A stretch of DNA of 58,710 nt from a virus. The position numbers and the translations under genes are program-made. The stretch spans positions 1-58,710 of IMG/VR virus record IMGVR_UViG_3300030118_002829. The stretch is one strand, 5' to 3'. The notes beneath the pieces were generated by a model. That model ran no database searches, had not been told where the DNA came from, and saw nothing but the letters and a program-made list of their open reading frames with translations. Position 1 is the first letter of the stretch. Every line of letters begins with the position of its first letter. Below are positions 53 through 46,622 of the stretch, in pieces.

Positions 53-370
53 ATGAAATTAAACGATTATCAGAATGAAGCAAGAAAGACTGCAATATAT
101 CCTATTGATGATGGGCTTACCTATACTGCATTAGGATTATGCGGTGAAGCGGGAGAAGTCGCTGAAAAGATTAAGAAGTTTATCAGAGGAGATAATAGTA
201 TTTCTCTTAAAGAAGATTTACTATATGAGTTAGGAGATGTTCTATGGTATCTTTCTAATCTAGCATTTGAATGTGGTTATACTCTACAAGAAGTTGCAGA
301 AGTTAATCTGAATAAACTGGGAGCAAGAATGCTAAGTGATACTATCAAAGGTAATGGTGATAGAAGATGA
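53..370 (+). CDS. MazG-like nucleoside triphosphate pyrophosphohydrolase
   Basis: A 105-residue all-alpha NTP-PPase of the MazG/dUTPase-2 superfamily. The metal-binding pattern is visible: GEAGEVAEKIKK (an ExxE helix near residues 31-42) followed by ELGDVLWYLS (an ExxD helix near 60-69). Such enzymes hydrolyse (d)NTPs to monophosphates and pyrophosphate; phages use them to clean nucleotide pools or to alter host alarmone and nucleotide levels. Length is normal for a stand-alone single-domain MazG. A strong Shine-Dalgarno (AAGGAGGAATAG) precedes the ATG. The stop overlaps the start of the PolB fragment in an ATGA junction, so translation is coupled. The substrate cannot be read from the sequence. 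Confidence 0.9.
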   Translation: MKLNDYQNEARKTAIYPIDDGLTYTALGLCGEAGEVAEKIKKFIRGDNSISLKEDLLYELGDVLWYLSNLAFECGYTLQEVAEVNLNKLGARMLSDTIKGNGDRR

Positions 371-11407: not shown

Positions 11408-11833
11408 CTATTCTACCTCCAATGTATATATCACTTCAATCGTATCGGTTGTTGAAAAATTACCAATTGCGTCAAAATTAATTCTTGAGAGCATAATATT
11501 CTCTGTTGTATATTCAGGATTGCTAGTATTATTAGTATTCACTACTTCATCTATTTGGTCATCTTTGTAAATGTCTCCAAAGAATCCTACCTCTCTAATT
11601 GTATATCCTTGAAGTTCTGTTCCAGTAAATGTTCCTCTAAATTCTACGACCTTATCATCCGAAGAACTAGATGTTGTAGTTGCATCAGTTGATGCGGGTA
11701 ATGGAACATCGAGTGTAGTAGAGGTAGGATTTGTTCCGCCTCCTCCTGTTCCTAATTTCGTTTTTGAAGATGATGCTCCAAAAAAATCTCTCAATAGTAA
11801 TGCTACTTTCTTTTTTGTTGTATCTGTTATCAT
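11408..11833 (-). CDS. Small tail-fibre-associated/baseplate protein
   Basis: 141 residues. After a helical N-terminus and a Ser/Thr/Gly-rich linker, the segment GYTIREVGFFG ... TTENIMLSRINFDAI ... DTIEVIYTLEVE resembles the module at the N-terminus of many phage tail fibres, where REVGLF-type strands end in I-x-Y-T-L. Its ATG overlaps the stop of the giant upstream gene (ATGA). Probably links fibre to baseplate; inferred. Confidence 0.5.
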   Translation of the reverse strand: MITDTTKKKVALLLRDFFGASSSKTKLGTGGGGTNPTSTTLDVPLPASTDATTTSSSSDDKVVEFRGTFTGTELQGYTIREVGFFGDIYKDDQIDEVVNTNNTSNPEYTTENIMLSRINFDAIGNFSTTDTIEVIYTLEVE

Positions 11834-17800: not shown

Positions 17801-20800
17801 TCATTTGGACTAGATAATATAGGATTAGTTAAAGTTAAAACTCCTCCTTGACTTAATCCCTGTGTATTTAAGAAATATAATCCTTGAGTAAAATAATCAG
17901 TTAAAACTGTTATTCTAACTGTTTGGCCACTAGTATCATCTCTAAATGAACCTTGACTTTGAGTGGTTTTTTTACCGTTAGGATGTTTTCTAGTAAAGAG
18001 TATAACTTCAGAATCATTAGTATCATCTTCAAACACATGGGCTACGGAAAATATACCAATATTATCAAGTGTATTAGTGGGTCCTTCAATTTTAATTCTC
18101 ATACCTGCCTCTAAACTTTGTAAAAATGTCTGTGTAGCAGAATCACTGCTAAACAATCTAGCCACGGACCATCCTTGAGTTGAACCAAAAGAAGTCCCTG
18201 CAACAGAATTACCATCAAACTTTATTGTAGTTCCCGAAAAATATTGTGCGGGAGAAGCATTACCATAGTATTTCATAATTTTTTCAGTCGCAGATATTGT
18301 TTTAAATAGCGGTCTATCTAAAGTAAATGCTACTCTATCATTCAAAATTCCATCACTGGAACCTAAACTAATATCTATAATTTTACCAAAGAGTTCCCCG
18401 TTTTCATCAAAGATGAAATCCCCTTGTTTCAATTCTTCCATCCAACTAGCCTGAGCAATTTGAAATACTCCATTATATCCTAATATTTCTGAACTAGTAA
18501 ATGCTCCTATTTGTAATAAGTATTTATCTCTAGAATCTATGGGATTATTATCTACTCTAGCCAAAACTGCGGGACAAATAGGAGCCATTTCAATAACAGT
18601 CTCTCTTTCGTTAGATGATAAATTAATTACATCATATTCGGTCAATGAATTAACAGTATGTAAATTAACATAATTAACACCGTATTTATTACTAATTTCA
18701 TCTGCTACATTACAATAAAACGGGAAATCGAAATCTATACCTTCGGGACTATTGATACTATAACCCTTAGCCAAAGGATTAGAACTACTAGATGTTCCTA
18801 CTAAATTTGACCCGTCTTTAAATGGAGCATTATCGTCAGTTAGAGATAAAGATTTACCTCCTGTAAAAATAATGCCTTTATCTTTAGCCCCTAATAGAGA
18901 ATTAACTCTAGTGGTAGTATAGGGGTTAGAGGAAAGAGATTTAGCCAAACTAATTGTATTACCTCTAATAGGAATTCTAGTAGTAGATACTGTTGATGAA
19001 ACATCTAATTGGTCACTACTACTAAAATCAAATGTCTCAGTAGGAGTTTCATAAAAACTACACATGATGGCCTCGCCATCTTTTAATCTTGTAGGAATAC
19101 CTTCTTCAAATAAAATAACGGCAGGGGTAAAATTACCATCACCTGCAACATCAGTAATTTTATGCACTCTACCTAAAAATATGCCTTGAGAAGTGTATAA
19201 TAAATCGCCTTTTTGTATAGTAGGATTATCGGAAGAAGATGTGATACCACTGATTTGTATTTCAGTAGTTCCAACGGGGTAAACTCCATCATCAGTATAA
19301 GTTATACCGTGTGTAGCATGGTCAGTAACGGTAGTATCAACTTTAGTCACTCTAGCCATCCTCTCAACAGGACCAACAGTAGAGTAAACTATATCTTCTG
19401 TAAACTTAAAATCTTTATTTATAACGGGGCCTAGTAATTCAGAGGCAGTATTTCTACCTCTAATTTTTAATTTAAACATCCCATCTTCAATAACTTGTTC
19501 TACACTTTCAACTGTCCCTTTGAATACCGTCTTTTCAATATCAATAGTTCCAGAGAAATAATCTAAATAACTTAAAATCCCTCTTGCGTAAAAACGAGTA
19601 GATGTATTAGACCTAGCCAAATCGTAACGGGGATTTCCGTCAGCATCATTACCCGAATTTACTGGATAACTATACAAGGAGGTATGTGTTGTTTTCAAAC
19701 CCGAATAAAGACCAACTAAATCATCGGTTTTATTGAAATTCTCTAAGAGTCTTTCATCTTTAAGATGGGTTTGTAATTTAAGGAAACTGTTATGTTTATC
19801 TCCATACTCTACTTTGATACGATGCCCAGTTACCTGTCCTCCTTTTAGGACTAAATGAATATCATTATTTCTTGATTGAGATGCCCTTTCTAATTGCACT
19901 TCTCCTACATTTAAAGAAGGTCTAGTATTAGCCCCCGTTCCTGTAAGATTATCATTTATAGGATTAAGAGTCTGAGTTAATCTTTCAAAATTGGTGACAT
20001 TTCTATTCCACCCATCAGCATTTGAACTAAAGGCCCCAGTCAAAATATAATTATTTATTTTAGTGTCTATCGGTATGTTTGTAAGTAAGTTATCTGCTAA
20101 AAAAGAATATTTTCTTCTAAAAGCAGTAGCGTTAAAAGTTGGAACATTTGTCATAGGAGAAGCACTAGTTAGTGCATATTCTGTATCCGTAGCCTTTCTC
20201 CAACTACGAACTTTCATAAATTGCATAGTTCCATTTTGATTGGAATTAGATTTATTAAAAATAGTATCTATATTAAAATGATAAAGAGTCCCATCTACAT
20301 TTGTAGTAATAGTATCATAAAGCGGGTCATATCTACTAGTTGTTGAAGTGCTACTGTTAAGAATAACAGAGGATAAAAAGAATCTCATATCTTTTTCGTT
20401 TCCTAGATTGATAGCCTCTAATGTGTTCACTCCCGAACTAGCAGAAAAAGAGCCAGTGTTTCTGTCAATTTCAGCAATGGGAAAAGTTCTTTCTTTACCT
20501 ACAATTTCACTTTCAACAATTTGATTAATTAAGAGGGAATCCCCTTCTTTTATTTTCTTAGCAAGAATCTTTTGAGTATCAGCAAATACAATATCTACAT
20601 ATCCGCCAGTAGAGGTTACTGATTCATACTCTATCATTTCCATAGCGTTAGGAATAATAGTATTTGTTAATGGAGAATCACAATAATGCATGTATCTTGA
20701 GTATCCTGTTTTGGTAGAATAGAGCGCATCATCCGTTGTTCTATTAGCCATTCTAAATGAATTCTTTAAATGGTTTGAAGAATCAACAGGACAATACATT

Positions 20801-28505: not shown

Positions 28506-30137
28506 TCACCCTTGTAGAACCCAGTGTGTTTTGACTTCACACTTACTCATTGTTCTTGGCATAACAGTCCCTTCAATTGTAATTGGTCCTTTATCATCGG
28601 GAACAGTAAGAGTAGCCGCACTTAGGAAATAGTCTTGGAAGTTTAGTAAGATTTGCTCTCCACTGTCTTTATCGAATTGTAGAACAATCTCATTTGTTGA
28701 ACCCAAATCTTCAGCATTATTCAACAATTCTTGGAATAACTTATCGTCAGTAACTAGAGCAGTAAAGGCGATTTCATATGTCCTTTGAGCAGGAATAGCA
28801 TTCTTGATTGCTTTGCTAGAAATACCAACATATCTCTTATCTTGTAGATTATTATTAATCGTTAAGGTTAGATTGGTAATCTTTAGGAAAGTTTGACCAA
28901 AGCAACTAAACAATCCACTAGAGAAAAAGAATGGTTCTAATCCACCATTTGCTCCTGTTCCTGATGGATAATTAAGTAGAGTTGTATCTACCCCTACATT
29001 GTTTCTAGGAGTGTAGACTTCAGTAGTGGTTAAATCATTGACATAATCAACTGTTCTAGTGTTAAGGTCTAATGTCATCTTAACTTCTTCATTCTCATTA
29101 GCAGTTAGAGTAAAGGTGTTTACTCGATTGCCTCTAGCAATTCTAACAAGAGTTTCTGTTTCAGTAGCAGTTCCTTGAGTAGCAGTTACATTTGATGTTT
29201 TAGCGATACTGTGTTCTAAAGTAAAAGAGGGTAAGTCGGTCCCGTTAGCCTCTGAAAATTCATAGGTAATTGGGTTTTGAATTACACCTGCCGCAGTAAA
29301 AGTAGGAACAGTCAATTTATTCAGATTTGCAGGAGTATCTACACTAATAACAACTGGGGGCATTAATTGAGTATCTTCTCTAGTCCTGTAAAAGATTGGT
29401 CCTTGGTCAAGATGAGCAGTTTCAAACGAACCATCGTGAGCAGTTGAAGCAGTATCTCCTGTATCAATGTAAATTTGTTGATTAGTTGCTGCTTGCGCTA
29501 AGAAATTAGATTGAGGAACGGTAGAACCCGAAGCAGAAGTGTATTTTGCACCAGTGCATTTACCTAATGCGTAATACAACCATGTTCCTTGATTAGCAAC
29601 CAATCCAATGTTACCTCCACTTGCAGTTTCAATTCCTTTGTATTGATAACTAAAGTTTCTACTTCCGCCAAGTGCAAGATTCATTTGCTTCATCTCTACT
29701 TCCGTATTAGGGAAAGTAGCAGTTTCTACAAGACCCATCCAGTTATCAGCGTTTAACTTCAAAGAGTTTGCACCTATTCTCGGAGCAGGACAAGGAGTTC
29801 CATAAGGGTGTATATGAAAAAAGTCAAGGTCAGAAGAATCAAATGTTCCGCTAGATGCTGATAGAGCAGGTGGTGGTGAAACTGTAAAAGTAGTAGTAGT
29901 GTTAGAGGTGATAGTGTGTAAGGAAGAACTATTACTATCAGAAGCATCAAAGATTTCTACTGTGCATCCTTTATACAAATTAGGAACCAATTCCATTGTT
30001 GTAAAAGGAGACAACGGAGCAATTATACCCGTTGCTTCTGTTGATGCGCTTTCGTCTATAAATCCACTTAGCAATAGTTCTGGAACAAATGCTAAGTTTG
30101 CTTGGCTTCCTACAAATATGTCTTCATTTACTGTCAT
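28506..30137 (-). CDS. Major tail (tube) protein
   Basis: 543 residues. The order portal-capsid-connector-terminator-tail tube-chaperone-tape measure puts this gene at the tube position. The sequence is beta-rich: NWMGLVETATFPNTEVEMKQ, GGSRNFSYQYKG, and a C-terminal VTDDKLFQELLNNAEDLGSTN, ILLNFQDYFLSAATLTVPDD, ITIEGTVMPRTM, a strand pattern seen in siphovirus tube proteins. It is longer than minimal tube proteins, with inserts that may project from the tail surface. Stop overlaps the next gene's GTG. Confidence 0.7.
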   Translation of the reverse strand: MTVNEDIFVGSQANLAFVPELLLSGFIDESASTEATGIIAPLSPFTTMELVPNLYKGCTVEIFDASDSNSSSLHTITSNTTTTFTVSPPPALSASSGTFDSSDLDFFHIHPYGTPCPAPRIGANSLKLNADNWMGLVETATFPNTEVEMKQMNLALGGSRNFSYQYKGIETASGGNIGLVANQGTWLYYALGKCTGAKYTSASGSTVPQSNFLAQAATNQQIYIDTGDTASTAHDGSFETAHLDQGPIFYRTREDTQLMPPVVISVDTPANLNKLTVPTFTAAGVIQNPITYEFSEANGTDLPSFTLEHSIAKTSNVTATQGTATETETLVRIARGNRVNTFTLTANENEEVKMTLDLNTRTVDYVNDLTTTEVYTPRNNVGVDTTLLNYPSGTGANGGLEPFFFSSGLFSCFGQTFLKITNLTLTINNNLQDKRYVGISSKAIKNAIPAQRTYEIAFTALVTDDKLFQELLNNAEDLGSTNEIVLQFDKDSGEQILLNFQDYFLSAATLTVPDDKGPITIEGTVMPRTMSKCEVKTHWVLQG

Positions 30138-30754: not shown

Positions 30755-30942
30755 TACAAGCCACTATCCTTAACTGCTTTTTCTAATCTTACAGATATTT
30801 CCTTTTCTATCGCTTCCGCCATATACTTTTCAATTTCTGCATCCGAATAAATATAATCTCCTAAGCCGCTTTCCTCAAACAATTTATTCCTTTCTTCATA
30901 CATTCTCTGTATTTGTTTAACCAATTTCATTACATCACTCAA
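30754..30942 (-). CDS. 62-residue helical hypothetical protein
   Basis: MSDVMKLVKQIQRMYEERNK...: highly charged and helical (DAEIEKYMAEAIEKEISVRLEKA), no Cys, no membrane segment. It overlaps the connector stop by eight bases and touches the terminator start, so it belongs to the head-tail joining cluster. Function unknown; might correspond to a short neck protein. Confidence 0.5.
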   Translation of the reverse strand: MSDVMKLVKQIQRMYEERNKLFEESGLGDYIYSDAEIEKYMAEAIEKEISVRLEKAVKDSGL

Positions 30943-32053
30943 TTAAGAACACCCCTTCTTTCTTTCCATCCACCATTGCCATTGCTTCTTTTCTCAGAAT
31001 ATCGTATTTCTCTTTTACAGATATTTGATTATCTGATTCTGTAATAAGAACAGTAGCATCATCAGAACGAAGAATTTCACATGCTACAAGTTTAGTAGCG
31101 GCATCGGTTATTTGAGCAGGAACAGTTCCACTACCCGCATAATAAGTGGCTCTTACAGAATTAAGATGAATATATGGGAATTTGTCTCTAAAGAAAATTC
31201 TACCTTCTCTATTTATTTTCCACCAATCATCCATTCTACCTGTGTCTTGTTTATCGGTAAATCCACTAACACTTATCCCGTGTTCATTTGTGGTAGCAGA
31301 ATTACCATTCAAGTAAATAGCACATTCAGCCCCATCATCACTAGGAAGTAGAGAAGAAATGAGAACCTTACTAGAGTCCTCTGAATCTAGACAAGCATAA
31401 AAGAAATCAGAAACTTGTTTTGCTCCCGTAGAATCTGTTTGCCCTTTTGCTTGAGTAGCACCTGTTAATGCCGCAGTTTTAGAAGGATATTTTTCATTGA
31501 TTAATGAAACAAGTTCCTCCGCAGCCGTTTTGTTCCCATAGGTAGTATCGAATCTCGAATTGGTAGTGCCAGCAAGTAAATTGAATACTAAACCATTATT
31601 CGGTAAACGAAGATTAATTGTAGTTGTTCCACTAATCATTGATGTATAATCATTCATCGTTACTGAGGCTTCAGCACCACAAATGTTAGTCCATTTGTTA
31701 CCCTCCCAAATATCTAAACGAATCATCTTTGAGATACTATGCCTGTCTAATTGAACAAATCCAATATAGTCACGGTATCTTCCAATAGCATAATGACCTA
31801 CGCCAAAAGTAAAATTATGATATTCCTTTTCATAAAGTAATCTTCTCCAAGATGTTTTGGTTTTACTATCAATAAAATCTTCTATTCTTTTGATAAATTC
31901 CCCTACCTCAGAATGCATGGGTGTAGTGCTGGCTGAAAATGGGGGAATCTGTAATAGTTCTGCTACCTTATCAGCAGTGGTATAATATCCTCTACCTACC
32001 GAATAATCGGGATTAATAGTAGTGGTATCAGAAGGCGATTTATACTGAGACAT
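30935..32053 (-). CDS. Head-tail connector/adaptor protein
   Basis: 372 residues from the ATG at 32053, which sits seven bases after GGAGG; an ATG at 32059 overlaps the upstream stop. The N-terminal part (DKVAELLQIPPFSASTTP, then GEFIKRIEDFIDSKTKTSWR) resembles the helical connector family (HK97 gp6-like), with a long beta-rich extension. It would form the ring beneath the portal. Larger than typical 100-residue gp6 proteins, so the extension may serve as a neck decoration. Confidence 0.55.
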   Translation of the reverse strand: MSQYKSPSDTTTINPDYSVGRGYYTTADKVAELLQIPPFSASTTPMHSEVGEFIKRIEDFIDSKTKTSWRRLLYEKEYHNFTFGVGHYAIGRYRDYIGFVQLDRHSISKMIRLDIWEGNKWTNICGAEASVTMNDYTSMISGTTTINLRLPNNGLVFNLLAGTTNSRFDTTYGNKTAAEELVSLINEKYPSKTAALTGATQAKGQTDSTGAKQVSDFFYACLDSEDSSKVLISSLLPSDDGAECAIYLNGNSATTNEHGISVSGFTDKQDTGRMDDWWKINREGRIFFRDKFPYIHLNSVRATYYAGSGTVPAQITDAATKLVACEILRSDDATVLITESDNQISVKEKYDILRKEAMAMVDGKKEGVFLIE

Positions 32054-32055
32054 AA

Positions 32056-33312
32056 TCATGCCTCCGTAGCAGTTGGAATGTTTGAAATAGCATCTTCTAG
32101 TTTTTCTAATCTAGCCTTTATTAGATTAAGATAATACTTACGGGCCATATTGATTTTTTCTCCTCTAAATTCTCCTGCTCTACCCGCAGTCATTCCACCA
32201 CGACCCAAACCACGAATCCTTTCAGTTTGGCCACCAGTAGCAGACATTGTAGTTTTAGGTTTTAGAGTAGCCGTAGCAGTGGTTCTAAATCTCGTTTTAA
32301 TTTCAACTAGATTATCTAACTCATCTCCTTCAAATTTAGGAACTTTTTCATCGTCTTCATCCAACAAAAACTCTCCATAATTAGGATTAACCTGTTTTTC
32401 TCCATCCACCATTATTTCCCTTCTATTGTCTCTTTCATACAATTTGTTTTCGGGGATTTGTCTAAGACGAATAGTAAGTTCCATAGTAAAATCATAAAGA
32501 GTGTTACTGTCTAGCAATTTGTTAGGCATATTGCTTAATATAATTCTTTCAAAATCATTTCGATTATCAAAAAGACCGTCAATCAATGCTTTTTCAAAAT
32601 CCGTAGTATCTCCCTCTTTAGGTCTTAATGCTAAAACTCCTTTTAATTCATCAGAAATTGATATTATACTAGATTTACTTTCCATTGGGTCCCTATCATC
32701 TTCGGGTTTATGTAAAGCGACTTCTATTCCTAACGATTCATACCATCCTATTTTTCCATTTCTTTCTTCGGGAGTTTCTGATGGCATATCAAATTTAAGA
32801 ATTATTTTATCTTCGGGACTATCATCATCGAATCTAATAAAATCCGCTAAATCTTCTTTACTATTTATTGAATCTCTAAGTCTTTTTTCTAAATCGCTAA
32901 CAGTATAATTCTTTTCTAATGCTCCTTTTGTTTCAAAGGGAGTAATTAACTGCTCTGTTCTAGGAGTATTCCTTACATCTTTTATTTTGTAGTCATCGGG
33001 AAATTCATTTAGATTAATAGCCTTTAGATTACCTAAAGGAATATCTTTCACTAATTCTTTGAATGAAGCACTTTTGATTTTATCAAGTGTTTGCTTACTT
33101 TTAGTTTTTAGATATTCTTCTGTCTCTTTAGTATAAGTTTGACCTCTTTCTTCTAGTAACTCATCCTGTTCATCTAGAATCTCATCTTCTAATTCATCAA
33201 GATTATTTTTTCTATCGGCATCATATGGTATAAGCAGATAATCCTTAAAGGATTGATAGAATCTATTATCTTTGACCTCTTGGAGAGTGCCATCATACCA
33301 TACTAGTCTCAT
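32056..33312 (-). CDS. Acidic hypothetical virion-cluster protein
   Basis: 418 residues, unusually acidic and Asp/Glu-rich over most of its length (DELEDEILDEQDELLEE; DDRDPMESKSSI), with a basic Gly/Arg/Thr-rich C-terminal 90 residues (RTTATATLKPKTTMSATG; RIRGLGRGGMTAGRAG). Acidic body with basic tail suggests binding to DNA or to a partner protein. Located between the 227-residue protein and the connector. I do not recognise the family. Confidence 0.5.
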   Translation of the reverse strand: MRLVWYDGTLQEVKDNRFYQSFKDYLLIPYDADRKNNLDELEDEILDEQDELLEERGQTYTKETEEYLKTKSKQTLDKIKSASFKELVKDIPLGNLKAINLNEFPDDYKIKDVRNTPRTEQLITPFETKGALEKNYTVSDLEKRLRDSINSKEDLADFIRFDDDSPEDKIILKFDMPSETPEERNGKIGWYESLGIEVALHKPEDDRDPMESKSSIISISDELKGVLALRPKEGDTTDFEKALIDGLFDNRNDFERIILSNMPNKLLDSNTLYDFTMELTIRLRQIPENKLYERDNRREIMVDGEKQVNPNYGEFLLDEDDEKVPKFEGDELDNLVEIKTRFRTTATATLKPKTTMSATGGQTERIRGLGRGGMTAGRAGEFRGEKINMARKYYLNLIKARLEKLEDAISNIPTATEA

Positions 33313-33317
33313 TTAAA

Positions 33318-34001
33318 TCACGCAAGCCACTTAGCCCAAGCCGCACCTTTCTGAACTAATTTACTTAATCCTAATCCACTGTTAGGAGGAGTATAGGTCG
33401 CTTGACCAGTAGCGGGGTCAATCCAGTATGGGTTATTGTAATTATCATAACCACTTGGAGGAACAGGATAACCACTTTGGTTAGTCATAGCCCCTTGTCC
33501 CATAGCCATGTTTTGATTCATACCACCTGTTATTGGCGCACCTTGGATATTAGCAGGAACATTATTTTGCATTTGAGGTTGTCCTCCTGCTTGACCATCT
33601 CCAAATCCTTGAGCCTCCAAGTATTGATTCTTTGCCATTTGTCTTTGATATACGACTTCTTGATTGATTGACGATGCTAATATTTGTTGAATATCCAATT
33701 GAATATTTTCTTCTGTAATTCTCTCATACTCAGCAAGGCATCCCTTTTCTAGAGTAATATCTCCTTGAGTTGCTTCTAATTTAAAATGTAATTTAGTTAG
33801 CATTCTACTCATTACTCTTTCAATAACATCTTCCAATAATTTCTCATAAGAAGTAAAGAATGCTTCGCCATGATACAATAAAAATTCTTCAACATGGTTA
33901 TCTTGTAGAGTCAAAAGATTGTTCATAGCCTTGAAATTTTTATCGCTATTTTGATTCATTTGGCTTGCCAAAGCACTATTACTTGTCCCTAGTAATCCCA
34001 T
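33318..34001 (-). CDS. Hypothetical protein with helical N-domain and Gln/Gly/Pro-rich tail
   Basis: 227 residues. Residues 1-125 are helical with a long amphipathic region (LLEDVIERVMSRMLTKLHFKLEA). Residues 130-205 are Gln/Asn/Gly/Pro-rich and disordered (GQPQMQNNVPANIQG; MNQNMAMGQGAM). The last 15 residues return to a short helix (LSKLVQKGAAWAKWLA) that could dock to a partner. No family recognised; the stop is followed five bases later by the next gene. Confidence 0.5.
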   Translation of the reverse strand: MGLLGTSNSALASQMNQNSDKNFKAMNNLLTLQDNHVEEFLLYHGEAFFTSYEKLLEDVIERVMSRMLTKLHFKLEATQGDITLEKGCLAEYERITEENIQLDIQQILASSINQEVVYQRQMAKNQYLEAQGFGDGQAGGQPQMQNNVPANIQGAPITGGMNQNMAMGQGAMTNQSGYPVPPSGYDNYNNPYWIDPATGQATYTPPNSGLGLSKLVQKGAAWAKWLA

Positions 34002-34624
34002 TATTCATCACCTATTAGTTCATCAATTTGTCCTATTTTACCTTTCAAATCCATTAGTAGTATCATCAGTTTTTCTTCTGCCGTTGTAGTATCCGCCTTC
34101 GGGGGTTGTATTTCCCATCCCTTAGAGGTTAATGAAATTATATCCTTCTCAGTTAAACTAGTTATTGGTCCCCTACTTATTACATTCGGTATTCTAGCCT
34201 TTGGGATATACTTTTTGAACTCTAATCCATGCTTTTCAGCAATCAATTGTTGCTCTAACATTTCCATTTGTTTAAACATAGAAGAATGTTTAGGACAGTA
34301 AGTTCCTCTTAACGGTCTACCTTTATGCACATAAGATAATGGAATAGGTGGTCTAAGAGTATCACCTGCTTCCCAAATGTGATGAACTCCACAAACTACA
34401 CATCTATCTTTAATGTTAAACTTGTAACCGTATTTTAATCCCAAAAGGCTTTTCTTTTCGGGCAATAATACCTTTGTTATCTCTTTCATTTGTTTCTTAG
34501 TATCAAGAGATTTGTATTCAAAATTAATTATAGGACCTGCGGCTCTCGCAGTGTTTTTTATTCTTAATGGGTTAATCATTGTATTATCATTACCAATTAT
34601 GTTTGGTGTATATATTGCGCTCAT
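34001..34624 (-). CDS. Hypothetical zinc-binding protein
   Basis: 207 residues with a single probable zinc site: DRCVVCGVHH (C75, C78) and TYCPKH (C110, H113) about 35 residues apart. The C-terminal third is helical and ends in an acidic segment. A clear RBS (GGAGTATTGATAAA) precedes the ATG and overlaps the GTPase stop, so translation is coupled to the GTPase gene. A structural zinc finger in a neck or head protein is possible; no enzyme motif is visible. Confidence 0.55.
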   Translation of the reverse strand: MSAIYTPNIIGNDNTMINPLRIKNTARAAGPIINFEYKSLDTKKQMKEITKVLLPEKKSLLGLKYGYKFNIKDRCVVCGVHHIWEAGDTLRPPIPLSYVHKGRPLRGTYCPKHSSMFKQMEMLEQQLIAEKHGLEFKKYIPKARIPNVISRGPITSLTEKDIISLTSKGWEIQPPKADTTTAEEKLMILLMDLKGKIGQIDELIGDE

Positions 34625-34628
34625 TTTA

Positions 34629-35306
34629 TCAATACTCCTTTATCATTGTCATTATTCCTCGGTAGACCATTTCTGGGTCCGATTTGGCAGATACGATGTA
34701 TTTGAAACATGGTATGCCTCTATCCTGTAATCGTTGCATACCGAGTCTGAACGGTTCAAAAATTGGATGTTTCTCAATAGCCCCGTTGTGTTCATACTTA
34801 TCCTTCCACAAATCATACTTGTTGGCCCATATGCCTACTGCGATTGGGAAATCCTTGTCTTTCTTCTTTTTAGTTTTACCCTTTCCTAAACGCCAAAAGT
34901 TATCACAAATTGTATCAACTAAAAACTGCCAAGATAATTGATGTTCTAGATTGTATGCTTCTGATAAATGACGGTCATCTATCATGAATATGATGTATTT
35001 TACTTTCCTTTTCATCATATCTTTTTTCCATGCATCCCAGTAATATGATTGTCCTCCCACATCAGCAGTTTTGATGGTTCGACTATCCTTATCTATTTTT
35101 ACTGTTTTTCTACTTGCACGATGTAATCCCTTTGTTCTCTCTTTAACTACTGGGACTTCACCTCTAGTTCTCAATTGACGATGTAAAGTAGTTTTACCTG
35201 CTTTACTAGCACCATATACTCCAAAGTTTAACGCATGTATTCTTTGATACGCTTTAGCCATTGCTTCAGCCGCTAATATAGAGAAGCCCGTCAATAGTGT
35301 GGCCAT
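34629..35306 (-). CDS. Arf/Ras-like small GTPase
   Basis: 225 residues with the full set of small-GTPase motifs: G1 GASKAGKT (32-39), G3 DVGGQ (82-86), G4 NKYD (162-165) and G5 SAK (206-208). The DVGGQ form is typical of Arf/SRPRB-like GTPases. The N-terminal 25 residues are Ala/Leu-rich and amphipathic, which could anchor it to a membrane. A Lys-rich insert (KGKTKKKKDKD) precedes G4. It is encoded within the virion gene block, between small membrane proteins and a zinc protein. I know no standard role for such a GTPase in tailed viruses. Confidence 0.88.
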   Translation of the reverse strand: MATLLTGFSILAAEAMAKAYQRIHALNFGVYGASKAGKTTLHRQLRTRGEVPVVKERTKGLHRASRKTVKIDKDSRTIKTADVGGQSYYWDAWKKDMMKRKVKYIIFMIDDRHLSEAYNLEHQLSWQFLVDTICDNFWRLGKGKTKKKKDKDFPIAVGIWANKYDLWKDKYEHNGAIEKHPIFEPFRLGMQRLQDRGIPCFKYIVSAKSDPEMVYRGIMTMIKEY

Positions 35307-35309
35307 ACA

Positions 35310-35528
35310 TCAGTCCCACCCTACTAACTCCTTTAAATTATCAATGGCCATTCCAATCAAATCTACGCCCATTGCACCCATTATGTTACCAATCAAAAAG
35401 AAAAATACAGTTGAGGTAATACCCCAAATCCAGTATCTAACCTTCAAAAAGAATATATCAGCAGAATGCGCCCTAGACAAATCATACGCTAAAGACTGTT
35501 CATCTACTCCTAAGAGTCTATCTAACAA
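35310..35528 (-). CDS. Small membrane protein
   Basis: 72 residues. A hydrophobic stretch WGITSTVFFFLIGNIMGAMG (about 34-53) follows a soluble N-terminus with an amphipathic helix; a second short hydrophobic helix (VDLIGMAIDNLKELV) ends the protein. It is three bases upstream of the GTPase gene, so the two may form a membrane-associated unit. No family recognised. Confidence 0.55.
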   Translation of the reverse strand: MLDRLLGVDEQSLAYDLSRAHSADIFFLKVRYWIWGITSTVFFFLIGNIMGAMGVDLIGMAIDNLKELVGWD

Positions 35529-35540
35529 AAAGCATCACCT

Positions 35541-35921
35541 TCATTCTAATGCTTGAAGGAATGTTTCAGATACCTCATCATAGGATTGTTGTGGGCCACC
35601 GTAATAGTTTAGATTTCTACCTTTCATAGATTCTCTAATCTTTTGCTTTTGGTTTTCATCCCTTTGTTTCTTTTCCCAATACATGTCTATCTTTCTATTC
35701 AATAACCACATTTCAAATCTATCATTAATTGCTAAATCAAAAAGTGCTTTCTGTAACATGATTACACCTACTGTAATCAAGCCAAACAATACTGCGTGTG
35801 TAACTGCCGTAAATGGTAATTGACTACCATAGTTGGAATAGAAATAAACATTCATTCCACACATTGCACCTACATACATTATCGTCATTATCAGCCTAGT
35901 ATCTTTATTTATAGCCGCCAT
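35541..35921 (-). CDS. Membrane protein with two transmembrane helices
   Basis: 126 residues from ATG 35921, which has a GAGGGATATA ribosome-binding site; an upstream ATG at 35945 lacks one and overlaps the previous gene. Two hydrophobic segments (LIMTIMYVGAMCGMNVYFY and AVTHAVLFGLITVGVIMLQ) form a hairpin, followed by a charged helical tail (DMYWEKKQRDENQKQKIRE). It precedes another membrane protein and the GTPase. Membrane proteins in a head-gene block are unusual. Confidence 0.6.
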   Translation of the reverse strand: MAAINKDTRLIMTIMYVGAMCGMNVYFYSNYGSQLPFTAVTHAVLFGLITVGVIMLQKALFDLAINDRFEMWLLNRKIDMYWEKKQRDENQKQKIRESMKGRNLNYYGGPQQSYDEVSETFLQALE

Positions 35922-37048: not shown

Positions 37049-38401
37049 TCACTTCAAGTTGGTGATTTTACCTTGTCCTCTGAAGAAGGTGCAACCAGTC
37101 TCTCCCATTGTTCTGTAAAGTCCTCTGTTACCTAGAACACCTACACCGAATGGGTTTCCATGAGAAATACCATCCTCAAAGTATTGGGTAGGCTTCATTG
37201 TAGCAAACCATAGATGGTCAGTGTCTAGCAATAGCATGTCGGATAGACCGCTTGTTGCCGCACCTGTCTTTGGCATGTCTTTACAAGGAATTAGTGGAAT
37301 ATCGTAGTATGTTGCGACTCTGAATCCGACTTCTTGACCTTTAACACCCTTTACACCGTTATGGGTTGGGATAACTTCTTTAGCATCCATGAATCTTTCT
37401 TGGCTTTGTAGCAAGTCAGACAATGCTTGGATGGTATCATATCCAGTTAGGATAACCTTTGGAGTTCCGCCATTCAATCTTAGATTCTGGATAACATCGT
37501 TAATGATGCTTAGTGTTAGAACACGACCCGCAGTAGCATAAGAAGCACCGTAGTTTACGACTGAATCCATGAAAGATGCGCCACTTGCTCTTGAGTTGTT
37601 ACCGTAAAGAGTTGTTACATCAGCGTCTAGGTCAGCAATAGCACTAGAAACACTTGAAAGTCTATCTAGTTCACCACCTGTATCTGACAACTCATCGTTA
37701 CTGCTAACAATCTTCAATAGAGAAGTATAGTTTTCACGAATTCTACCAGTTGAGGTATCATTACCTAGTGTGTCATAGTTTTCAAGAGGCATTACTAGCA
37801 TAACCGATTGAGATTCTGCGTGGAATTTACCCATATCTTCACGAATGAGTTTACGAATGTCTCCAACACCATCATCAATCTTAGCCATTTCAGCCGCAAG
37901 TTCTGAGTAATCGAACATATGAGCAACAATCTTTGGATTCATGTGTAGAGTTGTGTATTCGGGAGCAAGGGCTTTCAACTGTGTGCTATCCAATGCTTCG
38001 TTTTCTCCAACACCACCGAGCAAATCTCCATCGGGAGTTGCTGAACCTTGTGCGCCAGTTCCAGTAGTTGCGCCAACTGCGAAAGCAGCAGCACTACCAC
38101 CTTGAGGTCTGTTAATCATAACTCTCCAACCGCTAGAGGTATATGGCCTCTTAGGTAGAATAGATAGTGGATTAATTTCTTGGTTAATCATTGACCAAAC
38201 TTTTTGGCCGTAAACCATATTGTAAAGTGCGGTTAGGTTTGAACCTGCACTTCCGTTAAGAGTTAGTGCAGTATCAGACGAACCAGTAAAACCACTGTTG
38301 ATAGAACCAACAATACCAGCCGACTTCAATAGGTTGTTTCCACCCATGTTACCATAGGTTGCTCTTTCCAAATCTTGAATTGTGTTAATATATTTTGTCA
38401 T
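37049..38401 (-). CDS. Major capsid protein (HK97 fold)
   Basis: 450 residues from ATG 38401, the second of two ATGs, because AAGGAG abuts the first. The helical N-terminus, E-loop-like region with glycine repeats (AFAVGATTGTGAQGSATP), spine/P-domain region and C-terminal A-domain (VILTGYDTIQALSDLLQSQ, then YYDIPLIPCKDMP, MLLLDTDHLWFATMKP) are typical of HK97-type capsid proteins in marine tailed viruses. It follows the protease/scaffold gene. The strong ribosome-binding site agrees with high expression. Confidence 0.85.
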   Translation of the reverse strand: MTKYINTIQDLERATYGNMGGNNLLKSAGIVGSINSGFTGSSDTALTLNGSAGSNLTALYNMVYGQKVWSMINQEINPLSILPKRPYTSSGWRVMINRPQGGSAAAFAVGATTGTGAQGSATPDGDLLGGVGENEALDSTQLKALAPEYTTLHMNPKIVAHMFDYSELAAEMAKIDDGVGDIRKLIREDMGKFHAESQSVMLVMPLENYDTLGNDTSTGRIRENYTSLLKIVSSNDELSDTGGELDRLSSVSSAIADLDADVTTLYGNNSRASGASFMDSVVNYGASYATAGRVLTLSIINDVIQNLRLNGGTPKVILTGYDTIQALSDLLQSQERFMDAKEVIPTHNGVKGVKGQEVGFRVATYYDIPLIPCKDMPKTGAATSGLSDMLLLDTDHLWFATMKPTQYFEDGISHGNPFGVGVLGNRGLYRTMGETGCTFFRGQGKITNLK

Positions 38402-38434
38402 CTTCTTCATCTCCTTGTTATTTCTCTAATGGGT

Positions 38435-39967
38435 TTAGAGTTGTCCCTCCAATCTTTCAACTAGAGCGTTAATGTCACTCCAATCCATCTTTGCGATTTC
38501 ATCACCATTAGGAATGTTTAGTTCTGCAACTGCTTCTTCTTGCTTACGAATTACAGTTTCTTCTTCTGCCTTTAGGTTAGTAAGAAGGTCAGTAAATTGC
38601 TTTCTTAGTTCAGCGACTTCTGCTTTAGCATCATAGTTTGCTTTCTCGATTTCCTCAGTCTTAGCAACCATTTCAGCATCAAATCTTGCTTGGAATCCAG
38701 ACTTTACTTTCTCAAAAGCCATCTTCTCAAGTTGTTCTGCTTTAAATTCAGCGTAAGCCTTCTCCAAGTTTTCGGGAGATAGGTCAAGAGTAGATTGGTC
38801 TTCAAACTTAGCCATGTATTTACCATCCAATTGAGGATGAGGGTCATCTACATATTCACCTGCGTTACCTGCTTCTACTTGACCAGTAGCCAAATCTGGT
38901 CTTGACTTCTGTTCCATGTCATCAGCCATTTCCATGTCATCTTTCTTGTCACCAGTATCCATGTATTCTCCACCCATTCCTTTTTCTTCGGGGTGCATTC
39001 CTTTTTCATGCATACCTTTCTCATCTTCTTCCTTATCCATGTAAGTCTTTTCTTCTTCTTCTTTAGCGACCATTTCTGTTCCCTCGGATATTTTGTCATT
39101 TTTCTCTATGTTCTTTATAGTGTTTTCCGTAGATTTGTTCATTTGATTCATTCTATCACGATTAAACCTATCTACCATTCTTTGTAGTTCAGCCCTTTCA
39201 ATTATACCTCTACCTAATGCCTGTTCATACGGACCCATTGACACTTCGCCAGTGGTATTTTCCATATCGTCTTTCATAGCATCTATTACCTCTTTCTTTG
39301 TGTAATTCTTTCCGCTAGTCAATACTTCTAGGTATTGCATCTTTACTACGCTTTCATTATTGTATGCGGCATTTGCTTCATCCAATGTCTTGTTCAGTTC
39401 TTCTAGTGCTTTGCTTATTGCATCCATTTTATCACCTTTTTCCATTTTTAGTATGTCAAATTTGGCTTCGGGGTTAATTCCCTTTTCACAAATCGTTACT
39501 TCATGGAGTTCTAATTTGGAGATTTCATTATATTCTCCGTATTCTTTGTGGGTCTTCTTTCTCTTTTCTAAGGCTTGACCCCCAATACTAAATGAGCGTA
39601 GAGAACCATCTCTAATTTCTCTACCAACCTCTTTTGCTTTTTCTATGTCTTCTCTCATCTTAATGACAACAAAGAATCCAACATCATCTACTTCGGTCTT
39701 GTATAGTTTACCTGTTTTATCTCTATAACTAGGAATAACCTCTCCAACTTGAACATTAGAATGATTAGTCATTACATTTCTAAACTTGGTAATCTTCATG
39801 TATTTCTCTACTGCTTCTTGTAGAGCATCAAGGGTAATAAGGTCGTTCTGCTTATCTACCATTTCAATAGAAGCATATCCTCCAATGACTAAATTATTGG
39901 ATTTAAGAATAGTAAACGGGTCATTTCTAATTGCATTAATAGAAGGACTGGCAACTAAAGAACCCAT
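38435..39967 (-). CDS. Prohead protease fused to scaffold domain
   Basis: 510 residues. The N-terminal 165 fit the HK97-family serine protease: VIGGYASIEMVDKQNDL, NVMTNHSNVQVGEV (His) and GSLRSFSIGGQA (Ser), then LHEVTICEKGINPEA. Residues 175-510 are helical and charged, as in scaffolds fused to proteases, with a Met/Glu/Lys/Asp-rich stretch. The C-terminal end, DEIAKMDWSDINALVERL, is nearly repeated in the 78-residue protein at 42695-42931. The scaffold part shapes the prohead and is expected to be cleaved by the protease. It lies immediately upstream of the capsid gene. Confidence 0.85.
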   Translation of the reverse strand: MGSLVASPSINAIRNDPFTILKSNNLVIGGYASIEMVDKQNDLITLDALQEAVEKYMKITKFRNVMTNHSNVQVGEVIPSYRDKTGKLYKTEVDDVGFFVVIKMREDIEKAKEVGREIRDGSLRSFSIGGQALEKRKKTHKEYGEYNEISKLELHEVTICEKGINPEAKFDILKMEKGDKMDAISKALEELNKTLDEANAAYNNESVVKMQYLEVLTSGKNYTKKEVIDAMKDDMENTTGEVSMGPYEQALGRGIIERAELQRMVDRFNRDRMNQMNKSTENTIKNIEKNDKISEGTEMVAKEEEEKTYMDKEEDEKGMHEKGMHPEEKGMGGEYMDTGDKKDDMEMADDMEQKSRPDLATGQVEAGNAGEYVDDPHPQLDGKYMAKFEDQSTLDLSPENLEKAYAEFKAEQLEKMAFEKVKSGFQARFDAEMVAKTEEIEKANYDAKAEVAELRKQFTDLLTNLKAEEETVIRKQEEAVAELNIPNGDEIAKMDWSDINALVERLEGQL

Positions 39968-40004: not shown

Positions 40005-42488
40005 CTAAATTTTTAATTTAAAATCCTTATCTTCTCTAATGTCCCAAAGGCCATCGTCTGTTTCGGGGTCTACGGGTTTTTGTTCTATACCAGTCCAAGC
40101 GAGCCACCTATCCTTTCCTTCTACTGGTATAACTCTAACATGAAACTTAGTATCAAATTTATTTCCAGTTAATATGTATTCATGATAACCATGTCTCTGA
40201 ACTCCTAATTCTACTTTACCAGAATCTATGAGTTTACCAACTTCTATTTTCCTTACAACTTGTGCAGGGTATTTACCCGATTTACCAAATAGAGTAAAAA
40301 TATCATCTTCATTTTCTATTGCTATGTCCCAACCAATAGTTTCGTCTGATAATTTGAATAAGATAGAAAGATTACCATCGTCTTTATAATAAATTTTGAA
40401 ATCACCATTGCGATATTTATCGGGAGTTTTGTATTTAGATTTTAGAACATCCTTTTCTAGAATATCGGGTTCAGCAAAAAATAAATTCTTTTCTTTATCA
40501 TAACCAATATCTTCTAGATTTTTTAGATAATTCATTAATGCTTTAGGTTTACTATCAAAGATATTATTGTAAGGTTTCTTCTGTTTTTCATTGACAAAAT
40601 CTTCTATTTTAGAAAATGGAGATTCACCGTTCTCTAAAAGATAATTCCTAATTGATACTCTGAATGCTCCCTTTTCTCTTTTTATCAATTCTTCTATTTC
40701 TGTCTTCCAAACATCAATATCTAGTAAAGCATTCTTAGCCATCAGATTATTTTCTTCAAATCCATAAAATGTAAATCCATCTAAATCTGATTTGATAATG
40801 GCAGTAGCATTACCGTGAATAGTATCACTTATGCGAAATCCCTTCTCTAATGCTTCTATATCATAGTTGAGTGATTTCTTAGTATCTTGAGATAATAGGT
40901 CTAATGTAATCAGTTTTTCGGGAAGTTCGACTTCGGGTATTTCTATAACTTTAGCGGAAAATAAAGTATAGCCTTCATCATTTTTCTTTACTTCATCTAT
41001 CTTAACACGAATAATAGTTCCAACTTCAACATCTATTTTTGTGTTCAATGCTTTACCAACATTAAGATATTCTCTATCATTAATTGTCTTAGTATTAGAG
41101 TAAGTATCCTTATCTGTTAATGGACCTGCCCCTAGAGTATAGGTAAACATATTTGATTTAGTGGTTTTCTTATCTAAAACCATCATATCCAAATCTACAA
41201 ACTTTTTCCACTTAACCCATTTAGGATTTTTCTTAGTTCCTATAAAGTAAGTAGAAGTTACATCTTTTATCACTACTCCTTCAGCAGTAGGAATTTTCAT
41301 AATTTCTTTTGAGTATTCTTCGACTTCTTTCACAGAATCAGCATAGCGAGTATCTTTCTTAGAAGGGAACGCTAACTTCTCATGAGAATGGGTAGAATAA
41401 TTATTGAATAAAATAGTCATTCTTTCTATGAGTTCTTTCTCATGTAATTCTTCACTTTCATGTCTCATTATGTCGAATACATGCGCTCTCAATTCCGTAT
41501 CTGATTCTTTGTCTTTGAAGATTCTAGCAACTACCTCTGCTCGATGTAATGCTTCTTTACCCTTGAATAGTAAAAGTTCAGCATCTAAAATACAATCTCC
41601 GAAATGTTTGGCTTTCATTACCTTAACTTGTTCGGGACATTTCTTTGTAATGTCTTTGCCATTAAACGAGAATATCTTAACTTGGTTATCTATCTTATGA
41701 ATCTGAATTCGCATCCCATCGTATTTTTCTTGGACTACCCACTTTCCAGTGAATCCTCTTAATTGTTCTAAATCATCAATCTCAAATATTCGATACATTG
41801 GTTTGTTAGGAACCAAAAAATGTTCTTCGGCTTTCATAGCCTTTTCCAAACTAACAGTCTTATCCCAATTTTTACGACTGTGATGATTAACAAATACTTC
41901 CTCTAATAATTTTCTAGCACCTAGATATTTACCTTTGATTCTTTTTGTATCTTTATCATCACCATAATGCTCAACAATAAAATCTAAAATATCTTTTTCA
42001 GCAAGATTTAATCCCTTGAATCCTTCTGTAATATCATCGGGTTTCAAATCGTTTTTTTCCCATGCTTCATCACTAAGGGATTTGTCATGGTTTCTCATAG
42101 CCCAGTGTATAAACTTAGCAAACAAAGATTCGTTTTCCAACAACTCATCTAATACATCTTCTCCATATTTTACAGAGAACGGGTCCTTTACTATACCCGA
42201 TGAATATCTTAATTCCTTAACTTGAGAATATATCTTTCTAGCACTATCACTTTCTACATCTTCGGCTTCATCAGAAAATAATTCTTTTTCATTGATTATC
42301 TGTTTAATCTCTTTGCTAAATTCATCAATGTCATCCCATTGTTCTCTAAGAGTTTTAACTTCACTCGCCCATTTACTACCATATCTTTTCTTATCAGAAA
42401 GAGCAGATAAGTAAGACATTCTCATTTTTTCAAAGAATTGAATTACTCTAACAGTTAGAGGGTCATCTTTGATAACTGAGACAGGCAC
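40005..42488 (-). CDS. ATP-dependent DNA ligase with long N- and C-terminal extensions
   Basis: 827 residues; ordinary archaeal ligases have about 560-600. The nucleotidyltransferase core runs from about 225 to 430: motif I EKYDGMR (catalytic K255), DAELLLFKG, HVFDIMRHE, TAEGVVIKD and WVKWKKF. An OB-fold region follows to about 545. Residues 1-220 are helical and charged. The last 270 residues (VLKSKYKTPDKYRNGDFKIYY, VELGVQRHGYHEYILTGNKF, HVRVIPVEGKDRWLAWTG) form an added domain I do not recognise. It seals nicks in DNA. It sits among head genes, not replication genes, which suggests a role in packaging or inside the virion. Confidence 0.88.
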   Translation of the reverse strand: MPVSVIKDDPLTVRVIQFFEKMRMSYLSALSDKKRYGSKWASEVKTLREQWDDIDEFSKEIKQIINEKELFSDEAEDVESDSARKIYSQVKELRYSSGIVKDPFSVKYGEDVLDELLENESLFAKFIHWAMRNHDKSLSDEAWEKNDLKPDDITEGFKGLNLAEKDILDFIVEHYGDDKDTKRIKGKYLGARKLLEEVFVNHHSRKNWDKTVSLEKAMKAEEHFLVPNKPMYRIFEIDDLEQLRGFTGKWVVQEKYDGMRIQIHKIDNQVKIFSFNGKDITKKCPEQVKVMKAKHFGDCILDAELLLFKGKEALHRAEVVARIFKDKESDTELRAHVFDIMRHESEELHEKELIERMTILFNNYSTHSHEKLAFPSKKDTRYADSVKEVEEYSKEIMKIPTAEGVVIKDVTSTYFIGTKKNPKWVKWKKFVDLDMMVLDKKTTKSNMFTYTLGAGPLTDKDTYSNTKTINDREYLNVGKALNTKIDVEVGTIIRVKIDEVKKNDEGYTLFSAKVIEIPEVELPEKLITLDLLSQDTKKSLNYDIEALEKGFRISDTIHGNATAIIKSDLDGFTFYGFEENNLMAKNALLDIDVWKTEIEELIKREKGAFRVSIRNYLLENGESPFSKIEDFVNEKQKKPYNNIFDSKPKALMNYLKNLEDIGYDKEKNLFFAEPDILEKDVLKSKYKTPDKYRNGDFKIYYKDDGNLSILFKLSDETIGWDIAIENEDDIFTLFGKSGKYPAQVVRKIEVGKLIDSGKVELGVQRHGYHEYILTGNKFDTKFHVRVIPVEGKDRWLAWTGIEQKPVDPETDDGLWDIREDKDFKLKI

Positions 42489-44963: not shown

Positions 44964-46622
44964 TTAACCAACTCTCCTTTCTGTTCTTCTATCTACATTA
45001 TTATTAGCCGCTTCTTTGGGTAAACCTGTCGCCCGATTAGGAGGGCCTACGCTCATCCTAGGTTTAGGAGTTGCGCCTTTCACTTTAGCAGGTTGTCCTG
45101 CTTGTTCCATTGTAGGTTTAGTGCCAGCCTCCATCATTTGACCTAATTGTGATTGGTCAATATCAGTTCCCGCATAAGGGTCAGACTCAAACTTTTCATC
45201 CTCAGTTTCTTCTCCACCTTCTCCTTCGGGTTTAGGTTCGGGTTTGGAATAAATGAATTTGCCATTTTCATCCATATCAACCTCAAATCCTAAATTTTTA
45301 ATTTGACCAGCAATATTAACTTCAATCTCTCTCTTTCTCATTTTAGCGATTTCATCTTCTTCTTCAGATGGTGGTAGAATAATATCCCAATCAGTAATAC
45401 CAAATTGCCTAACTACAAATGGGAATACATATTTATTCCAAACATTTTGAGCCATTTCTACTGCTCTATTCGTAACAAGTATTTGCATACCCTCATTGTT
45501 TAATCCACCACTAGTAGAATTATCAGCCATGAAAATTTTACTTACACCATAGAAAGCAGCAACTCTGTCTCTCAAATCTTCCTTAACAGAAATGTAATCC
45601 ATTTCCTTTAGACTATCCATGAATTTAACCCACTCAACAGAACCTCTACCATTCTCAGCCTCTATTCCCATAACTGGAATAAAGTGAGCATCCTGTTCCA
45701 TCTTTTCTTTTACTCCTCTCCAAAAAGTTTTCATTGAATCTATATTTCTTGTTTGAACTGCTAATAGACCTCTAGGCATTCTAGCCTTCGTATATGCTTG
45801 ATTGATATAATTCTCCATAGCAATCAAAGTCGTTAGATGATTAAACATTGTAATGATAGGACTTGTTCCATAAAGTCTACTTGGTTTGTATTTACTAAAG
45901 TGTAAAACTTCTCCCTTGATAAAATTCTGAACATCTCCATGTCCTCTATTTACATAATGAACAGGATACAAGTCTCCACCACATTCACCACATTTCTCAT
46001 GAGGATTATCTGCAACTACATGTCTATGATGCAAACAGGTAAAGGATGAGGAACCTTTGTTACCATCATCGTCACAAACAATAGCCATAGTAACTGGGTC
46101 GCCACGATACATTTCTTTGATTCTATGCGCTCTAATATTGCCATTTCCATCAATGAAATATTCTTTGACCAATACTAGATATGCATCGTCCATAATATTA
46201 AGGTCATCTTCTAATTCTTTTAGAACATCAATAAACATCTGTTCAGATTGGTTAGCATAACTACTTCCCATGAATTTATCAGCATACATTTTTTGTTTTG
46301 CGTCAGGTTTTCTTAAATCGGTAGATTCACAATCTGCACATTGCATTGTTGTTTCTTCATGTTCCTTACCACAAGCATTACATTTTACCGCAAATCTAGG
46401 GGTCCACTGATAACCCCTTCTGAAGATTTCATTCTTCAATTGAGTAATACAGGTTCTAAGAATAACTGAACTATCAGCAATATGATAGATAATAGGACCA
46501 GTCATCTGTAATGGATGATGCCTCTCTTGTATTCCCATCTGGTAAACTTCTCTATCTTTGGGAACAGGAGTTGTTCTTCTAAAGAAATTAGTAATAGAAA
46601 ATCTTCTTCTTTCCTCCGTCAT
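44964..46622 (-). CDS. Portal protein with two inserted zinc-binding loops
   Basis: 552 residues. The portal core is shown by EVLHFSKYKPSRLYGTSPI, AMENYINQAYTKARMPRGLL, GVSKIFMADNSTSGGLNNEG and the helical end region. Two cysteine-rich loops are unusual: C81-C84-C95-C98 (two CxxC knuckles) and C196, H198/H199/H201, C211, C214. The C-terminal 90 residues are disordered and charged. It forms the dodecameric ring for DNA passage; the zinc sites may bind TerL or stabilise the clip. ATG overlaps the homing endonuclease stop. Confidence 0.85.
   Translation of the reverse strand: MTEERRRFSITNFFRRTTPVPKDREVYQMGIQERHHPLQMTGPIIYHIADSSVILRTCITQLKNEIFRRGYQWTPRFAVKCNACGKEHEETTMQCADCESTDLRKPDAKQKMYADKFMGSSYANQSEQMFIDVLKELEDDLNIMDDAYLVLVKEYFIDGNGNIRAHRIKEMYRGDPVTMAIVCDDDGNKGSSSFTCLHHRHVVADNPHEKCGECGGDLYPVHYVNRGHGDVQNFIKGEVLHFSKYKPSRLYGTSPIITMFNHLTTLIAMENYINQAYTKARMPRGLLAVQTRNIDSMKTFWRGVKEKMEQDAHFIPVMGIEAENGRGSVEWVKFMDSLKEMDYISVKEDLRDRVAAFYGVSKIFMADNSTSGGLNNEGMQILVTNRAVEMAQNVWNKYVFPFVVRQFGITDWDIILPPSEEEDEIAKMRKREIEVNIAGQIKNLGFEVDMDENGKFIYSKPEPKPEGEGGEETEDEKFESDPYAGTDIDQSQLGQMMEAGTKPTMEQAGQPAKVKGATPKPRMSVGPPNRATGLPKEAANNNVDRRTERRVG

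Follow-up and report, generated by a model that had tools for sequence, protein, structure and literature searches.

On the evidence of gene content and linkage across many loci, the small GTPase encoded at positions 34629 to 35306 of this DNA is a core and virus-specific gene of magroviruses, found wherever their structural module occurs. Conserved gene order and co-inheritance further mark it as one of four genes that are inherited together as a core unit of magroviruses, the others encoding two small membrane proteins (TM134 and TM72) and a zinc protein (Zn207). We propose, with about an even chance of being right, that the unit encodes a membrane-docked GTPase switch that acts late, during head assembly at the membrane or during egress. 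The finding is stronger than an earlier reading of the letters alone (the sequence-only reading) could know, as its core status and its restriction to these viruses show.

The virion module and the four-gene unit

The window is the whole stretch of DNA that was analyzed, 58,710 nucleotides of IMG/VR record IMGVR_UViG_3300030118_002829. The full record (94,290 bp) encodes PolB in NTD and CTD parts, ATP ligase, a clamp loader, a chaperonin, an HMGL-like gene, an HK97 major capsid protein (MCP), and terminase, arranged in two opposed gene blocks. The Magrovirales profile describes tailed viruses of Poseidoniales with genomes of 90 to 110 kb and matching gene content (PMC10768690, PMC12999244), and by these features the window belongs to a magrovirus, one of the tailed viruses that infect the abundant marine archaea of the Poseidoniales. 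The two PolB parts (window positions 367 to 1296 and L028:14293-15960, both on the plus strand) are separated by nearly the full length of the linear record, at its two ends, as if the record were circularly permuted. PolB-NTD and PolB-CTD are labeled separately in Aoguangviridae as well (PMC10768690).

The following genes of the virion operon are referred to below.

44964 to 46622, minus strand: portal protein (Phage_portal, 2.6e-11; hhalign 99.9% to the HCTV-1 portal)
38435 to 39967, minus strand: head maturation protease (Pfam/PHROG and HCTV-1 profile alignment)
37049 to 38410, minus strand: MCP, HK97/SU10-like (SU10_MCP, 4.9e-8; PHROG major head protein, 1.8e-24; hhalign 99.6% to HCTV-1 gp112)
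35541 to 35921, minus strand: TM134, two-TM hairpin protein of ~126 aa from the conserved ATG (alignment)
35310 to 35528, minus strand: TM72, single-TM protein of 72 aa (TM prediction, alignment)
34629 to 35306, minus strand: small GTPase of 225 aa (G motifs, Foldseek, dN/dS, distribution)
34001 to 34624, minus strand: Zn207, CCCH zinc protein (C75, C78, C110, and H113 invariant)
33318 to 34001, minus strand: g227, the gene that follows in the block, also conserved (locus comparison)
30935 to 32059, minus strand: head-tail adaptor (hhalign 98.3% to HCTV-1 gp117, E 2e-14; we take gp117 to be an adaptor on our own assignment)
28506 to 30137, minus strand: tail tube protein (Phage_tube_2, 1.2e-10; hhalign 98.7% to HCTV-1 gp121)

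The GTPase unit thus sits between the MCP and head-tail adaptor genes. Two small membrane proteins had been noticed beside the GTPase from the sequence alone, and they are indeed encoded directly upstream and tightly spaced, with the TM72 stop codon ending 3 nt ahead of the GTPase ATG. TM72 carries a RAHSAD motif just before its single TM segment that is conserved in all aligned members, and the two-TM hairpin of TM134 is followed by a long, charged C-terminal tail. The stretch from 34629 to 35921, previously taken as a three-gene unit, is conserved without exception. The Zn207 gene directly downstream of the GTPase was missed at that time and is a fourth partner. The order TM134, TM72, GTPase, Zn207, g227 was identical in 195/195 loci that contain all five genes.

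TM72 and TM134 matched no PHROG, Pfam, or PADLOC family, and neither they nor their relatives matched a holin in Pfam or PHROG. A weak PHROG match of TM134 to a tail terminator (0.0026) was obtained with the window protein only and with none of its relatives, and this assignment was rejected. An ArfGAP-like identity for Zn207 was likewise rejected, as neither fold nor profile matched; no structural match of any other kind was found for Zn207. PADLOC was negative, and a role as a defense-system gene was set aside.

Several other features of the module were recorded. An 827-aa protein with an ATP-dependent DNA/RNA ligase domain is encoded beside the head protease (40005 to 42488, minus strand) and is conserved in magrovirus loci that extend that far; a second, full DNA ligase lies in the replication block (L028:6033-7562). 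At about the position of the 827-aa protein, druskaviruses encode a giant protein with a zeta-toxin domain. The tail region contains an ORF of 3509 aa (11830 to 22359, minus strand), much larger than its neighbors. In the record of locus L370, the magrovirus MCP frame (G013:C1:17575-18930) contains one in-frame TAG, which may be an assembly error, a broken gene, or recoding.

Sequence motifs, fold, and family of the GTPase

The GTPase ORF begins with an ATG at 35306 and runs to 34629 on the minus strand; the same interval of the plus strand is stop-rich. Six elements of the protein were located.

35238 to 35303, minus strand: N-terminal hydrophobic/amphipathic helix, residues 2 to 23 (AF2 helix prediction)
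35187 to 35213, minus strand: G1/P-loop GASKAGKTT, residues 32 to 40 (intact in 216/216 loci)
35049 to 35063, minus strand: G3 DVGGQ, residues 82 to 86 (most relatives have E at the catalytic position, this protein Q)
34848 to 34886, minus strand: Lys-rich insert before the G4 strand (mean 5.1 K/R, minimum 4)
34812 to 34823, minus strand: G4 NKYD, residues 162 to 165 (ANKxD in 213/216 loci)
34683 to 34691, minus strand: G5 SAK, residues 206 to 208 (213/216 loci)

Motif counts refer to 216 fetched loci, equivalent to 153 distinct proteins, with some contigs fetched twice. The G motifs that the sequence-only reading reported as intact (GASKAGKT, DVGGQ, NKYD, SAK) are all present and are kept in at least 213 of these loci. 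DxGG[QE] is kept in all 216, as DxGGE in 138 and DxGGQ in 78. As the Q61E substitution in Ras is not known to abolish hydrolysis, the change from Gln to Glu at the catalytic position is no sign of a dead enzyme. The switch I Thr58 and W93, at position Q+7, are invariant in the family alignment, and a long switch I (RTRGEVP) and a C-terminal EMVYRG helix are also conserved.

The Lys-rich insert was rightly recognized from the single sequence: it is conserved, with four or more K/R in every protein measured (146 distinct GTPases). The claim of an amphipathic N terminus held in part. The helix is strongly hydrophobic, and its family consensus has a hydrophobic face of M4, F7, A8, I11, L15, L18, Y19, and L22, but the amphipathic pattern itself is moderate (mean muH 0.29 to 0.32, roughly 1 SD higher than in shuffled versions of the helix). 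Residue 2 of aligned members is Ala, Ser, or Asp, and the Gly2 needed for Arf-type myristoylation is absent.

An AF2 model of the GTPase, built from our own alignment of 32 sequences, was mediocre overall (pLDDT 74.6, pTM 0.75), and the P-loop/switch I region (residues 36 to 61) was poorly resolved. Searched against the PDB with Foldseek, the model gave 863 matches at E<=0.001, and each of the 50 listed was a Ras, Rab, Arf, or G-alpha protein or a complex that contains one. The absence of a GTPase fold would have spoken against the earlier interpretation, and the listed matches of the model are all small GTPases. Among the matches listed, the top target TM-scores belonged to Arl8/Arl10B (1zd9, 0.68) and Asgard ArfR1 (8oum, 0.65). 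The 50 BFVD matches listed were giant-virus proteins, mostly Ras/Rab GTPases, and included no tailed virus. The small_GTP profile was matched by 31/32 members. Motifs and predicted fold together identify the protein as a genuine Ras-superfamily small GTPase (TRAFAC class), with a predicted cycle of hydrolysis and exchange.

The label "Arf-like" is partly supported. The Foldseek TM-scores favor it, as does DxGGQ with the invariant Trp at Q+7, which recalls Arf and G-alpha proteins. The Pfam Arf match of the window protein also points this way but is borderline (7.5e-5; 22.7 bits against a cutoff of 22.3), and generic GTPase models scored nearly as well. Across the 32 members, Pfam Arf was matched by 20, MMR_HSR1 by 28, Roc by 24, and SRPRB by 18; MMR_HSR1 and Roc thus match as often as Arf or more often, and sequence profiles give no confident assignment to the Arf family. 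A scan of the record itself with PF00025 at E<=0.01 gave no match, in agreement with the borderline Arf score. An hmmsearch of the PDB with the GTPase family profile, which is narrow, returned no match, and a tblastn search of the INPHARED phage collection led nowhere. We infer a virus-specific family that would work like the Arf/ArvA membrane switches.

Distribution, selection, and co-inheritance

A profile scan of IMG/VR found GTPase relatives in at least 322 contigs; the gene is therefore not unique to this genome, whereas uniqueness would have counted against the earlier interpretation. Fetching loci by other genes gave a consistent picture. Of 77 MCP-anchored loci, 55 reached far enough downstream, and all 55 encode the GTPase. 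Zn207-anchored fetching added 79 new loci, with the GTPase in 78/78 that could be assessed and the remaining locus cut by the contig end. Among PolB-anchored contigs of at least 80 kb, GTPase and MCP were both found in 9/9. The 26 PolB-anchored contigs overall comprised 11 with both genes, 14 with neither, and 1 with the GTPase alone, so that the two were jointly present or absent in 25/26; in the exception, the GTPase lies 1 kb from the contig end.

The unit was not found beyond magroviruses. In 84 loci with distant MCPs (from haloarchaeal, methanogen, and other viruses), 40 of which extend at least 3.5 kb downstream of the MCP, no homolog of the GTPase, TM72, TM134, or the Zn protein was detected, except in L320, which is itself a magrovirus contig. 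The suggestion that switch GTPases are alien to standard tailed-virus assembly is thus borne out in the related tailed viruses examined. The profile scan of genome contigs gave only two GTPase matches (L094 and L095), both in a "Maricaulis" MAG (NZMJ01). As both contigs carry the magrovirus MCP and protease, they are best read as mis-binned virus, and recent capture from a host, or an auxiliary gene, was rejected for want of a cellular relative. Contamination of this public MAG could mislead host assignment.

The GTPase is under strong purifying selection (median dN/dS 0.048; NG86, 52 pairs), and a chance ORF was ruled out by this value and by its conservation. Retention of the motifs, including the switch I Thr and G4/G5, at a dN/dS of about 0.05 suggests that nucleotide binding matters and that the protein is no decaying remnant. 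Identity to the window copy in divergent loci was 64% for the GTPase, compared with 58% for the MCP, and the GTPase was the more conserved of the two in 156/171 such loci; over 97 loci, mean distances were 0.32 and 0.34, respectively. The GTPase distance matrix correlated with those of the MCP, the adaptor, and the partners, including the Zn protein (r 0.82 to 0.91), which points to vertical inheritance with the virion module. Correlations were high for nonpartner genes too, and they therefore indicate shared descent, not physical contact.

Although magroviruses rank with the most abundant viruses of the sea, none has been isolated. The ICTV Magrovirales profiles do not mention the GTPase (PMC10768690, PMC12999244). 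None of the papers searched pairs "magrovirus" with "GTPase", and the magrovirus papers among them are silent on such a protein; the gene may be annotated in the supplements of other magrovirus studies. The GTPase appears to mark a step that every magrovirus needs and that related haloarchaeal tailed viruses can dispense with. Together with the zinc protein, it also provides a clean marker of magrovirus virion modules.

Possible functions and comparison with known systems

The constant company of the GTPase, two membrane proteins, and a zinc protein among particle-building genes suggests a GTP-driven membrane step. In the switch model that we favor, the GTPase would cycle between GDP- and GTP-bound states and would be docked on the host membrane by its N-terminal hydrophobic helix, the Lys-rich insert, and the cytosolic faces of TM72 and TM134. 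Zn207 could serve as a regulator or effector, either GAP-like or as a scaffold. The switch would then time or place a late step, which may be a membrane-bound stage in the initiation or maturation of proheads, or else an exit-related remodeling of the membrane. We infer each of these elements (membrane docking, nucleotide cycling, Zn207 regulation, and the assembly-or-exit step) from the motifs, the selection, the strict linkage, the invariant order, and the placement in the virion module, and ArvA of Haloferax offers a precedent by analogy (PMC10927574). The moderate amphipathicity, the mediocre AF2 model, the lack of a structural match for Zn207, and the Glu in place of the catalytic Gln in most loci all weigh against the model. 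Of the roles suggested earlier, membrane-associated assembly or egress fits this anatomy, whereas host membrane traffic received no direct support.

If the unit acts on membranes, it would represent a step of tailed-virus morphogenesis or egress that is driven by a GTPase, and an expressible four-gene system for studying archaeal membrane remodeling by small GTPases, alongside euryarchaeal ArvA and the Arf of Asgard archaea. A bolder extension, possible but falling somewhat short of probable, is that a whole order of abundant tailed viruses builds or releases particles with a machine that is docked on the membrane and switched by GTP, made up of the GTPase, both TM proteins, and the zinc protein as regulator, in analogy to vesiculation by Arf/ArvA. 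Such a mode of tailed-virus morphogenesis or egress would be previously undescribed.

The GTPase could instead be a structural part of the virion (neck, portal vertex, or capsid associated) that binds GTP or GDP as a folding cofactor, with the TM proteins incidental or interacting with membranes from the virion. Its position among head and neck genes, its co-inheritance with the MCP, and its conservation at or above the MCP level are in line with such a role. However, the related druskaviruses share the portal, protease, MCP, adaptor, and tube and have no counterpart, the full conservation of DxGG, G5, and the switch I Thr points to cycling over a static cofactor, and the strict linkage to two membrane proteins would be left unexplained. 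We consider a structural role unlikely.

An egress or lysis cassette is a similarly improbable reading, in which the TM proteins would disrupt or remodel the host membrane in a holin- or budding-like manner and the GTPase and zinc protein would time the event. Two small conserved TM proteins do accompany a GTPase, magroviruses are predicted to be lytic (PMC10768690), and ArvA exemplifies GTPase-driven membrane budding in Euryarchaeota (PMC10927574). Against this, the TM proteins lack any holin, PHROG, Pfam, or PADLOC family match, and a head-neck block is an unusual place for lysis genes.

It is very unlikely that the GTPase is a captured cellular protein that rewires host membranes or signaling and merely happens to lie in a late operon. 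Small GTPases are classic host regulators, and Ras/Rab homologs occur in giant viruses, but auxiliary genes tend to be gained and lost, whereas neither the place nor the content of this one varies, and the only two genome-contig matches are the magrovirus contigs of the "Maricaulis" MAG, leaving no cellular relative. That a P-loop NTPase of another kind was misread as a GTPase is hardly credible, since the weak AAA and kinase profile matches in a few of the 32 members are set against conserved NKxD and SAK guanine-specificity motifs, the nearly universal small_GTP match, and Foldseek matches that, as listed, are all GTPases.

The switch model can be placed beside several known systems. T4 gp40, from another tailed virus, is a membrane protein that helps prohead initiation and so favors the assembly of heads at the membrane; the likeness would be one of function, and gp40 involves no GTPase. 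The Druskaviridae (HCTV-1, HVTV-1) have a homologous portal, protease, MCP, adaptor, and tube, together with a probable match for gp119, in an order shared with the magrovirus, whereas their MCP-adaptor interval holds gp113 to gp116, which are unrelated to the magrovirus GTPase, TM, or Zn genes. Homology of the unit to the druskavirus genes in this slot was rejected by profile comparison. HCTV-1 gp116 (L096:16203-16532) is a small single-TM protein in this interval, without detectable kinship to TM72 or TM134. A membrane protein in the druskavirus interval as well could possibly reflect a general membrane step in these viruses.

The Ras/Rab/Ran GTPases of giant viruses (NCLDV) in BFVD are likewise virus-encoded small GTPases, but, judged from the matches listed, they are sporadic and host derived and are not core virion-module genes. 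With the Arf/Arl/Sar proteins of eukaryotes and Asgard archaea, the magrovirus GTPase would share DxGGQ with Trp at Q+7 (in the minority of loci that have the Gln) and a putative N-terminal membrane helix of moderate amphipathicity, and these proteins gave the highest listed TM-scores. It differs from them in its low identity (~18%), the frequent replacement of Gln by Glu, the Lys-rich insert, the long RTRGEVP switch I, the EMVYRG helix, and the absence of Gly2, and generic GTPase models fit most magrovirus members equally.

The closest parallel in logic is with ArvA (OapA, HVO_3014), the archaeal vesiculating small GTPase of Haloferax, whose partners are ArvB and ArvC (PMC10927574). Deletion of arvA abolishes vesicles and overexpression raises their numbers; its N-terminal helix is predicted to interact with the membrane, and the Zn-ribbon neighbor ArvC has been proposed as a GAP (PMC10927574). 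Like ArvA, the magrovirus GTPase is smaller than 250 aa, has Arf as its closest Pfam family (by a narrow margin, for the window protein), carries a predicted membrane-interacting N-terminal helix, and is encoded with a zinc partner in an operon and in a euryarchaeal setting. Unlike ArvA, it is virus encoded within a virion operon, where it is accompanied by two TM proteins and a CCCH protein that match neither DUF2073 (ArvB) nor DUF2072 (ArvC). Likened on the basis of the published description of ArvA, the magrovirus unit thus resembles the ArvA system in its logic, with unrelated partners.
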